From: Pedobacter cryoconitis
GTDB taxonomy: Bacteria; Bacteroidota; Bacteroidia; Sphingobacteriales; Sphingobacteriaceae
DNA length: 64,000 nt
Direction: 5' to 3'
NCBI RefSeq assembly: GCF_014207135.1
Contig: NZ_JACHCC010000005.1
Coordinates: forward strand, 248,001-312,000
A program made the translations under genes and the position numbers. Of the stretch, positions 2,735-40,713 are shown piece after piece. The notes beneath the pieces are model-generated. The model was not told where the DNA came from. It ran no database searches and saw nothing but the letters and a program-made list of their open reading frames with translations. How positions within the stretch are numbered: the stretch's first letter is position 1; each line of letters opens with the position of its first letter.

Positions 2735-3520
2735 ATGAACCTGTCTTTAACAAATAAATATGCAGTAATCTGTGGAAGCACACAAGGTATTGGATTAGCT
2801 ACTGCTGTTATTCTGGCTCGTTTAGGAGCTAACTGCATCCTGATCGCAAGAAATGAGGATGCATTAATTAAGGCACTCAAAGACTTACCAGTCACAGAAG
2901 GCCAGCAACACGCTTATGGCGTGGCTGATTTCACAGATCCTTCAGGTTTAGCTCTGGTTATACAGGATATTGTCTCCCGGACACCAATAGAAATCCTGAT
3001 TAATAACAGCGGGGGGCCTAAACCAGGACCTATTACCGAAGCTACGGCAACAGACTTCAGTCAGGCTTTTAATCAGCATTTGATTTGTAATCAGTTATTA
3101 GTTAATGCCGTCTTACCAGGGATGAAATCCCGTGGTTATGGCCGGATTATTAATATCGTTTCTACTTCAGTAAAAACTCCCTTGCCAAATCTTGGAGTAT
3201 CTAATACAATCCGGGCCGCAGTTGCTTCCTGGGCAAAAACTCTTTCTAATGAAATTGGCCAGTACAATATTACAGTAAATAATGTACTCCCTGGACTAAC
3301 AGCTACCACGCGTTACGATAAACTGGTTGAGAGTATTTCAGGCAGTACGAATACTTCTGCAGCTGAAGTGGAACAGGGACTGATTAATACTGTCCCTATG
3401 AGAAGAATAGGTAACGCCGAAGAAATCGGGAATGTGATCGCTTTCCTTGCCTCTCCTGCGGCTTCGTATGTTACGGGTACCAGTATCCCGGTAGACGGTG
3501 GAAGAACACCTGCTATTTAA
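2735..3520 (+). CDS. SDR-family oxidoreductase with altered catalytic residues
   Basis: A 261-residue short-chain dehydrogenase/reductase with ATG at 2735. The cofactor-binding turn is GSTQGIG (residues 14-20); NNSGG replaces the usual NNAG; the C-terminal strand YVTGTSIPVDGG is typical of FabG-like SDRs. Aligned by eye to a classical SDR, the active-site YxxxK becomes SNTIR, so Tyr is replaced by Ser and Lys by Arg, while the preceding Ser is kept. I recall a branch annotated as 3-oxoacyl-ACP reductase with SN.LRA in this place, so this looks like a family trait and not decay. The reaction is unknown. A hairpin terminator lies beyond the DnaA-box region. Confidence 0.75.
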   Translation: MNLSLTNKYAVICGSTQGIGLATAVILARLGANCILIARNEDALIKALKDLPVTEGQQHAYGVADFTDPSGLALVIQDIVSRTPIEILINNSGGPKPGPITEATATDFSQAFNQHLICNQLLVNAVLPGMKSRGYGRIINIVSTSVKTPLPNLGVSNTIRAAVASWAKTLSNEIGQYNITVNNVLPGLTATTRYDKLVESISGSTNTSAAEVEQGLINTVPMRRIGNAEEIGNVIAFLASPAASYVTGTSIPVDGGRTPAI

Positions 3521-3547
3521 ACACTGACCAGCAAGATATTAACATAG

Positions 3548-3645
3548 TAATCAACAATTATTGTGAATAAGTACATCATATTATCCACAATAGTCCACAT
3601 TAAACAGAGTGTAATCAACAAGTTATAAACATCGGCTGTGGATAA
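3548..3645. other. Cluster of DnaA-box-like 9-mers (candidate replication origin or DnaA-titration site)
   Basis: The spacer after the SDR gene holds two perfect TTATCCACA boxes, at 3581-3589 (+) and 3637-3645 (-). A one-mismatch box TTATTCACA lies at 3562-3570 (-). Two-mismatch boxes are TAATCAACA at 3548-3556 and 3612-3620, TAGTCCACA at 3591-3599, and TTATAAACA at 3623-3631. That is seven sites in 98 bases, next to the AT-rich stretch AAAATAATATATA. Clustering of this kind is known from bacterial oriC and from DnaA-titration sites. No dnaA gene is in view, but Bacteroidota origins need not adjoin dnaA. Confidence 0.5.
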
Positions 3646-3666
3646 AATAATATATACCACAAAAAA

Positions 3667-3694
3667 GGGTGCATCAATATGATACACCCTCCCC
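3667..3694. terminator. Bidirectional terminator hairpin (GGGTGYATC type)
   Basis: GGGTGCATC (3667-3675) pairs with GATACACCC (3681-3689), with one mismatch, between convergent genes. A-run on the left and T-run on the right allow use on both strands; on the minus strand TTTTTT follows directly after the stem. It closely resembles the core of the palindrome at 22575-22636. Confidence 0.65.
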
Positions 3695-3722
3695 CTTTTA
3701 TGATGATTCTGTGTTATATTTA

Positions 3723-4037
3723 TTATTGAACCACTACACCATCTTTGTTGATTTTAATAAAAGCTTTTTCGGTGCCTTTTTTAACATCAATCTGATAGTA
3801 TTGGGATTTGTCAGCAGCGGTTACCAAAAAGGCCGTTGTAGCTGTCCAGTCCTTATAGGCATCTGCTTTTAAAGTCGCAGTAACCGGGGCCGGAAGTTCT
3901 TCCAATTTAACAGGTACTTTTTGTGTACTGTCTGCTGATATAGTTAAAGTTAACGGAGTTTTAGTTTCCGCTGCTTTTACTGTAGATATTCCTGTGAATG
4001 TTAATAATGCTGCTGCAGCTAAGATGTAAGTTTTCAT
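3723..4037 (-). CDS. Small secreted protein, PepSY-like
   Basis: The ATG at 4037 gives 104 residues with a signal peptide ending near VKAAET (about residue 23). Upstream in-frame codons would place the signal peptide internally and are rejected. The mature part (LPAPVTATLKADAYKDW, then QYYQIDVKKG and INKDGVVV) follows the pattern 'residues that should not be exceeded, lysine-rich helix, then YYxV strand and KDG turn' seen in small PepSY-like/DUF2874-like Bacteroidota proteins. The role is unknown. It is a single gene between the DnaA-box spacer and a long AT-rich spacer. Confidence 0.65.
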   Translation of the reverse strand: MKTYILAAAALLTFTGISTVKAAETKTPLTLTISADSTQKVPVKLEELPAPVTATLKADAYKDWTATTAFLVTAADKSQYYQIDVKKGTEKAFIKINKDGVVVQ

Positions 4038-4235
4038 AACAATTTGTTTTATTCTGTTTGAAATAATTATTTTCTTTATTCGTAGGTGATTCATTCAATC
4101 GCTAACTATAGTCACACAATAGTGCCAAAATCAAAAATAAAACACAACAAACTTAAAAACAGTTAATTACAAATAAACATAAGAAAACCATTTGGGGAAT
4201 AACGCTACAATCTGATGAGACAGGTAACAAAAGAA

Positions 4236-4264
4236 AAATGCTGACATCCATCAGCATTTTTTTT
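4236..4264. terminator. Orphan bidirectional terminator hairpin
   Basis: AAATGCTGA (4236-4244) and TCAGCATTT (4251-4259) form a perfect 9-bp stem with a 6-base loop. A T-run follows on the plus strand, and TTTTTCTTTT follows on the minus strand. No coding gene ends here on either strand, so it may end an unannotated small RNA or insulate the spacer. Confidence 0.6.
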
Positions 4265-4336
4265 ATTAACTACCTATTTATAAGCCTAGACGCTTATTTC
4301 TTTCGCAGTTATTTATCTGCATATTTTCAAAAAGGT

Positions 4337-4363
4337 AATTCTATCAGATAAAAAGATAGAATT
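4337..4363. repeat. Perfect inverted repeat AATTCTATC-N9-GATAGAATT
   Basis: The two 9-base arms at 4337-4345 and 4355-4363 are exact complements. The right arm lies in the word AAGATAGAATT, which occurs again in the repeat at 4436-4456. It may be an operator or part of an AT-rich structural site. Confidence 0.55.
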
Positions 4364-4435
4364 CAAATAAAAAACACGAGTAATAATTCAACTAATTGAG
4401 CGTCAATTTATTATCCAAGCGTTTAATACTAGTAT

Positions 4436-4456
4436 ATAATTCTAAGATAGAATTAT
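4436..4456. repeat. Perfect inverted repeat ATAATTCTA-AGA-TAGAATTAT
   Basis: The 9-base arms at 4436-4444 and 4448-4456 are exact complements with a 3-base spacer. It shares the half-site GATAGAATT with the inverted repeat about 90 bases upstream, and lies 190 bases before the yceH-like gene. Confidence 0.55.
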
Positions 4457-4646
4457 TTCCCAATAAAAACCAAATTATGATCGGTTTTTTTTACAAAAAA
4501 ATTGTTTTAGCAACTTAAATACCCAAAATAAGCTAACAGATAAGGAATATTGTTTTGAAATTAATAACCAGTCCGATTATTACGTACAATTATCTAAAAT
4601 TTAAATTATTTCTGTATCAAGAATCAAATCTTATATATTTATAGCT

Positions 4647-40477: not shown

Positions 40478-40548
40478 TCTTTTCATTTTTAACAACGATA
40501 GGAATGACCTGTATAAGGAACCGAAAGCACGCAATGGAGTTGCAGCTT

Positions 40549-40618
40549 CACTTTTCCCTTCGGCAGTACTAACTGCATCAGGTTCAAAGGGTATATCTCA
40601 GCACAAGGCACCCCTAAA
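40549..40618 (-). ncRNA. TPP riboswitch (THI element)
   Basis: On the minus strand the leader reads AGGGGTGCC, then GCTGAGATATACCC, TTTGAACCTGATGCAGTTAG and CGAAGGGAA. These are the conserved P1-P2, J and P4-P5 core segments of the thiamine pyrophosphate riboswitch. It precedes thiS by about 70 bases and should shut the thi operon when TPP is high. Confidence 0.93.
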
Positions 40619-40713
40619 GTTTTTTGTAAACCTATAACATTTTTGATAAGAAACGAAATTTATTAAAAAATCAGATTTTAAGATTTGTCTTTCAAGGGTA
40701 ACTTTTGTATTAC

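Follow-up and report, generated by a model that had tools for sequence, protein, structure and literature searches.

A cluster of DnaA boxes in facing pairs in Pedobacter cryoconitis: a possible DARS-like DnaA-reactivating site outside the replication origin

The closest described systems are the DnaA-reactivating sites of Escherichia coli, DARS1 and DARS2, which PMC5742627 places at 0.81 and 2.97 Mb of the K-12 chromosome. In the bioD-uvrB spacer (813,107) and in the spacer upstream of mutH (2,969,135) we found one and the same order of DnaA boxes, namely a plus-strand box, a minus-strand box after 5 nt and another minus-strand box after a further 3 nt; several of these E. coli boxes are not perfect either, having one or two mismatches. 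The head-to-head pair is described as the functional hallmark of DARS (PMC10380432, PMC8682772). DARS-type control is presented as known from E. coli, sequences resembling DARS being described from many genomes of Proteobacteria (PMC10380432), and the DARS2 core is said to be conserved specifically among the gamma-proteobacteria related to E. coli (PMC4245941). Bacillus subtilis is described as having six DnaA-box clusters outside oriC, the removal of which leads to early initiation (PMC13220808). For Bacteroidota, no report of DnaA-reactivating sites was found among the matches listed in the literature searched, from which most subscription journals were missing.

The locus considered here belongs to a Pedobacter cryoconitis genome (G000; 6.01 Mb, 29 contigs) and was found in a window of 64,000 nucleotides (G000:C5:248001-312000), to which positions refer unless a contig is named. 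An earlier note on this DNA had counted seven DnaA-box-like sites at 3548-3645, and the count is exact: two are perfect (3581, plus strand, and 3637, minus strand), one has one mismatch and four have two. They lie in a 202-bp convergent intergenic spacer (3521-3722; hereafter site A), delimited by flanking open reading frames and box density and bounded by two gene 3' ends. One is that of the short-chain dehydrogenase gene SDR1 (2735-3520, plus strand; PF13561, PF00106), whose three best named matches come from Pedobacter. The other is that of a minus-strand gene (3723-4037, its start chosen by eye inside the open reading frame 3723-4094) for a small secreted-type protein, which had no match when Pfam and NCBIfam were searched. 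A DUF480 gene completes the neighbourhood. Downstream of the small gene, apart from the boxes, RNA folding gives a terminator-like hairpin with a T-run (3661-3689, minus strand); the fold of 3655-3722 on that strand has -23.3 kcal/mol (z -4.6), and the hairpin is absent from the list returned by a consensus terminator scan. The sole match in an Rfam search of the window was a TPP riboswitch at 40538-40625 on the minus strand (RF00059, 70.9 bits), with none at site A. An AT-rich spacer with inverted repeats had also been claimed nearby. The spacer exists at about 4038-4646, divergent between two genes and with a GC content of 0.24-0.30 in 200-bp windows starting at 4000-4500, but even the longest of its inverted repeats, two of which have 23-nt arms at 74%, are weak, the one exception being a short hairpin at 4231-4264. 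Nothing was found that ties this spacer to the box cluster.

Seven sites with at most two mismatches in 98 bases are the highest count of the window, which elsewhere has 3 at most. When the 64 kb were shuffled 150 times with dinucleotides preserved, the best 98 bases had 3, 4 or 5 sites, and seven were never reached when the 202-bp spacer was shuffled 20,000 times. These comparisons bear out the claim that the density is far above chance. It is the clustering alone that is unusual: over the whole window boxes with at most one mismatch show no excess (23 versus 21.2 expected).

The cluster resolves into two modules, in each of which two boxes face each other across 5 nt and a third box lies outside the pair. 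In module A1, box II (TAATCAACA, 3548-3556, plus strand, two mismatches) faces box I (TTATTCACA, 3562-3570, minus strand, one mismatch), the pair reading TAATCAACA-attat-TGTGAATAA (3548-3570); a weak outer box III (ATATTAACA, 3536-3544, plus strand, two mismatches to TTATCMACA) lies 3 nt before box II. In module A2, box II (TTATAAACA, 3623-3631, plus strand, two mismatches) faces a perfect box I (TTATCCACA, 3637-3645, minus strand) in the pair TTATAAACA-tcggc-TGTGGATAA (3623-3645), and box III (TAATCAACA, 3612-3620, plus strand, two mismatches) lies 2 nt before box II. Two extra plus-strand boxes stand between the modules, a perfect TTATCCACA at 3581-3589 and TAGTCCACA at 3591-3599, the latter with two mismatches and 32 bp before box II of A2. 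Such pairs are rare: the pattern TTATCMACA-N5-TGTKGATAA, allowing two mismatches, occurs at three sites in the whole 6.0-Mb genome, two of which are A1 and A2 and the third site B on contig C6, and the reversed control pattern gave zero sites in the same search. An RNA hairpin or terminator was considered as the meaning of the pairs and rejected, the 23-nt units failing to fold (-0.3 and -1.0 kcal/mol; z 0.42 and -0.12). The whole of site A folds somewhat better than its shuffles (z -2.1, 9/200).

That these 9-mers are DnaA boxes is made credible by the dnaA genes themselves. In dnaA1-type promoters of 12 genomes of the genus, a minus-strand TTATCAACA is present in 12/12, at about -91 relative to the start as called mechanically, a distance that is smaller where the called start is earlier. 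At 84 bp before it there is a plus-strand TTATCCACA (6 genomes), TTATCAACA (3) or TTATTAACA (2), in all 11 that have enough upstream DNA (dnaA loci were read with n=24, G032 yielding no entry). Owing to these fixed places we regard TTATCCACA, TTATCAACA and TTATCMACA as credible DnaA boxes, and a perfect TTATCCACA is present in site A as well as in the sites B and C of G000 described below. The genome carries three full-length dnaA genes (C7:379759-381153, C14:119618-121012 and C3:299087-300487), mutually 85.7-91.2% identical, with the motifs Walker A, SRFKWG and GGRDHSTV and with boxes upstream of every copy; a broken fourth piece at C3:184578-184913 has two stops. At a threshold of E 1e-100, three dnaA genes were counted in 16 of 145 genus genomes, two in 22, one in 106 and none in one. 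A tree places the second and third dnaA copies of G000, G019, G006, G018 and G023 in one group within the genus. Two dnaA copies in one Pedobacter genome have already been published (PMC3080875).

The earlier note had proposed conservation in close relatives as a check, and the boxes are indeed kept there. The cluster is found at the matching locus in G006, G019, G013 and G023, and also in G018, which has three modules arranged differently and matches the sequence model described below only at E 0.04. For this differing arrangement G018 was left out of the five-genome alignment (G000, G006, G013, G019, G023), the model and the column counts, and was placed in a separate alignment. Invariant columns make up 48/72 within boxes versus 11/46 elsewhere, in a count for which the outer boxes had been chosen by looking at the alignment. 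Box I has 8/9 invariant columns in both modules, box II 6/9 in A1 and 7/9 in A2, and box III 6/9 in A1 and 7/9 in A2. The extra boxes are less conserved, the one at 3581 poorly (2/9) and the one at 3591 partly (4/9). The 5-nt facing pairs are kept in 5/5 aligned genomes, and the modules are spaced by 125-126 bp in G006, G013, G019 and G023 and by 75 bp in G000. Box III of A2 reads TAAYYAACA in 5/5 aligned genomes; that of A1 has 3-4 mismatches in the four relatives.

The five loci were made into a sequence model, which found full-length copies in at least 8 of the 145 genus genomes, the filters of the search being strict so that weak matches were lost. Matches outside the building set were obtained in G458 (E 1.3e-32), G540 (4.6e-29) and G481 (1.3e-28). 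Among the matches listed, 8 genomes have a full-length site A, seven of them with three dnaA genes and one, G006 (84% complete), with two. We considered a link between site A and dnaA copy number and did not retain it as proven: nine other three-dnaA genomes are without a full-length site among the matches listed (one of these, G514, has a weak match at 2.8e-5), and the 8 carriers look like one related group. Among the single-contig genomes, mnmG lies 1.20 Mb from site A in G019, 1.19 Mb in G006 (84% complete), 1.23 Mb in G540 and 1.21 Mb in G481. Gene order is probably shared among them and may account for this constancy, which is weak evidence of a positional need.

Site B (G000:C6:238850-238896) is a 47-bp perfect palindrome that contains a facing box pair and lies in a convergent spacer of 73 bp. 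The pair, perfect and with its boxes 5 nt apart, is present at this site in a convergent spacer in G000, G006, G013, G019 and G023, with outer ACA-ending boxes 2 nt away that are weak in several genomes. The palindrome has 21/21 arm pairs in G000 and G006, whose outer letters differ, and 15-17/21 in the other three, so a hairpin could be under selection there. Site C (G000:C9:320374-320397, and L277:18047-18070) is a facing pair with a 6-nt gap, lying in G000 and G019 beyond a terminator-like run after a paralog of the small secreted-type gene that flanks site A. Gap-6 pairs are also present in G013 and G023 among the matches listed.

In 40 genus genomes searched at gaps of 0-15, at least 13 gap-5 pairs were found, and 11 of those listed belong to G000, G006, G013, G019 and G023. 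Across 395 Bacteroidota genomes, a scan limited to perfect boxes, and hence blind to variant boxes such as those of site A, found a perfect facing pair at gaps of 0-14 in 26 genomes; gap 5 occurs among the places listed only in G000 (site B) and G257. A phylum-wide gap-5 rule, considered on perfect boxes in these 395 genomes, was not found. Other inverted arrangements were seen along the way. Eight genomes of family f19 (G067, G149, G264, G319, G331, G335, G362, G385) each have one gap-6 facing TTATCCACA pair and also one gap-12 or gap-13 TTATCCACA pair (two in G264). G120 has twelve facing TTATCCACA pairs, the five listed all having gap 13 and similar spacers, which may make them a repeated element. 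At G000:C5:438369-438401 there is a 33-bp inverted pair with 15 nt between its arms; in six contexts this pair lies 3' of a pyrB-like gene, and gap-15 pairs occur in at least 28 of the 40 genus genomes. The arrangement TTACCAACA-N5-TGTTAATAA occurs in nine other Pedobacter genomes and in five contexts (L253, L255, L260, L265, L266) precedes a conserved 309-aa gene by about 50 bp.

We tentatively read site A, with a confidence that stops a little short of an even chance, as a non-origin element of the chromosome with a regulatory role through DnaA binding, the likeliest kind being a DARS-like DnaA-reactivating site. If it worked as DARS does in E. coli, DnaA would bind the facing boxes as a pair, the ADP-DnaA molecules would touch via their AAA+ domains and release ADP, and the apo-DnaA would leave and rebind ATP, so that the site would help to set the timing of initiation. 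What speaks for this reading is the geometry, the box dialect, the conservation and the matches of the model in genomes it had not seen, together with the genome-wide rarity of the pairs, the existence of site B, the persistence of modules without a second SDR gene in G000 and G018 (see below) and the failure of the 23-nt pairs to fold. What speaks against it is that box III of A2 and of site B stands at 2 nt, that box III of A1 is weak in relatives, that perfect gap-5 pairs are rare in the phylum, that the second SDR gene begins at a promoter-like distance, and that the arrangement in G018, the possible hairpin at site B and the fold of site A (z -2.1) fit it less well. A further point against is that Fis is described as restricted to gamma-proteobacteria related to E. 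coli (PMC4245941); IHF and Fis sites characterise DARS2, and a stimulating flank DARS1. The earlier note had proposed either an origin or a titration or reactivation site; the latter is supported as a class, with putative binding of DnaA, by the conservation of the boxes, the non-promoter setting in G000 and the DARS-like geometry, but in the relatives the cluster may have a promoter role.

If reactivation does not take place, a site built in this way could still keep DnaA in store. This leads to the best surviving rival, which we consider unlikely, namely a titration cluster like those of B. subtilis in which the boxes just hold DnaA back and their geometry is secondary. The box density above chance in intergenic DNA is as it should be in such a cluster, the convergent spacer holds many boxes, the extra boxes at 3581 and 3591 are the less conserved ones, and the six B. 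subtilis clusters outside oriC, with early initiation upon their removal (PMC13220808), provide a precedent. However, titration would need less order than exact 5-nt facing pairs in five genomes and a module spacing of 125-126 bp in four of them.

Less probable still, but raised by one observation that at the same time lowers the DARS-like reading, is that the cluster is a DnaA-controlled promoter of a second SDR gene in the relatives and a remnant after gene loss in G000. The observation is a constant distance: in G019, G006, G013 and G023 a second SDR gene, 75-86% identical to the G019 copy, lies beyond the cluster with its aligned start 52, 54, 53 and 53 bp after A2, as a promoter site would have it. 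Yet G000 and G018 lack the second SDR gene at the site and still have modules in a convergent spacer, and the best tblastn match of that gene in about 0.81 Mb of distinct G000 DNA is at 28%. Since the modules of G000 sit between two gene ends, the cluster cannot be an ordinary promoter site for either neighbour there. Site B, moreover, is in a convergent spacer in 5/5 genomes.

We think it very improbable that the site is the operator of another dimeric regulator whose half-site resembles a DnaA box by chance. Palindromic 23-bp units at a fixed spacing would suit any dimer, and TTACCAACA-N5-TGTTAATAA upstream of the 309-aa gene in other Pedobacter genomes is a similar arrangement; against this, the half-sites equal the boxes at fixed positions of dnaA promoters, and the perfect TTATCCACA recurs in sites A, B and C.

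The remaining rival is an active or secondary origin of replication. The closed relative G019 (5.95 Mb) has the matching cluster at 3.730 Mb, where it is the top box cluster of 48 ranked pieces (score 15, next 9), some of which had been picked for holding boxes; among the ranked pieces of G000, site A is second (10), behind the upstream region of the C3 dnaA (11). Reading 440 of the 455 kb of contig C5 in ten-kb bins gives a negative GC skew for 40 of 44, both before and after the cluster, and the mnmG and dnaA genes of G000 are on other contigs. In 20-kb samples of G019 the skew is negative in 7/7 at 2.1-3.6 Mb and in 12/14 at 3.72-4.90 Mb, and positive in 8/10 at 5.0-5.93 Mb. In 5-kb bins it is negative in 4/4 at 4.90-4.92 Mb, mixed at 4.92-4.94 Mb and positive in 11/12 at 4.94-5.00 Mb. 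The sign thus changes at about 4.94 Mb, 1.2 Mb from site A and near mnmG (4.925-4.927 Mb), a gene that neighbours oriC. The names MnmG, PyrB and phytanoyl-CoA-dioxygenase-like are presumptive, judged by eye from sequence. G006 samples at 3.44, 3.60, 3.85 and 4.10 Mb are negative as well. Of the six 16S genes of G019, the one at 3.949 Mb, a minus-strand gene, is transcribed towards site A, and the plus strand carries the other five (5.07, 5.07, 5.61, 5.62 and 0.015 Mb); provided that rRNA genes point away from the origin, these orientations place it between 3.95 and 5.07 Mb. In favour of an origin at site A, every spacer of the skew switch region of G019 (4.90-4.98 Mb) has at most one box with at most one mismatch. 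On skew and rRNA orientation we nevertheless reject site A as the origin that the earlier note had considered, and we give an active or secondary origin the smallest chance of all the readings, as the site lies off the skew switch, shows no sign change in either G000 or G019 and is outside any mnmG or dnaA neighbourhood.

To return to the DARS-like reading, a broader claim can be built on it, which we hold as possible, with doubt outweighing belief: DnaA reactivation by facing boxes would exist outside Proteobacteria, and a Pedobacter clade with three dnaA genes would keep at least two DARS-like loci, one of them with two cores, that recharge DnaA paralogs or share them out. The interest of the matter is that such recharging sites are known from Proteobacteria. 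If the claim is true, it would point to a route of recharging DnaA that is older than thought or arose twice. Site A offers a defined DNA of about 110 bp for testing it.

Site A may finally be set beside the known systems. With a bacterial oriC it shares dense DnaA boxes and AT-rich DNA not far off; unlike an oriC, it has neither the skew switch nor the mnmG or dnaA neighbourhood. It resembles the B. subtilis clusters in being a group of DnaA boxes away from oriC (PMC13220808). The datA locus of E. coli is likewise described as an intergenic box cluster located downstream of genes (PMC5742627), and has features of its own, depending on an IHF site and lying near oriC at 94.7 min (PMC10380432). 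The IHF site of datA stands between two DnaA boxes that are essential. E. coli DARS differs from site A in several respects: site A has two cores, box III of A2 stands at 2 nt, the box dialect is TTATCMACA, and the Pedobacter host has three dnaA genes and belongs to another phylum. The match to DARS lies in the geometry. Both A1 and A2 have opposing boxes I and II at a fixed spacing, and the site is intergenic between oriC and terminus at a conserved position, which shared gene order could explain. In the core of DARS1 and DARS2 as described (PMC5742627, PMC10380432), as at site A, boxes I and II face each other across a 5-nt gap with a third box outside beside box II (at site A 3 nt away but weak in A1, and 2 nt away in A2), in intergenic DNA away from oriC.
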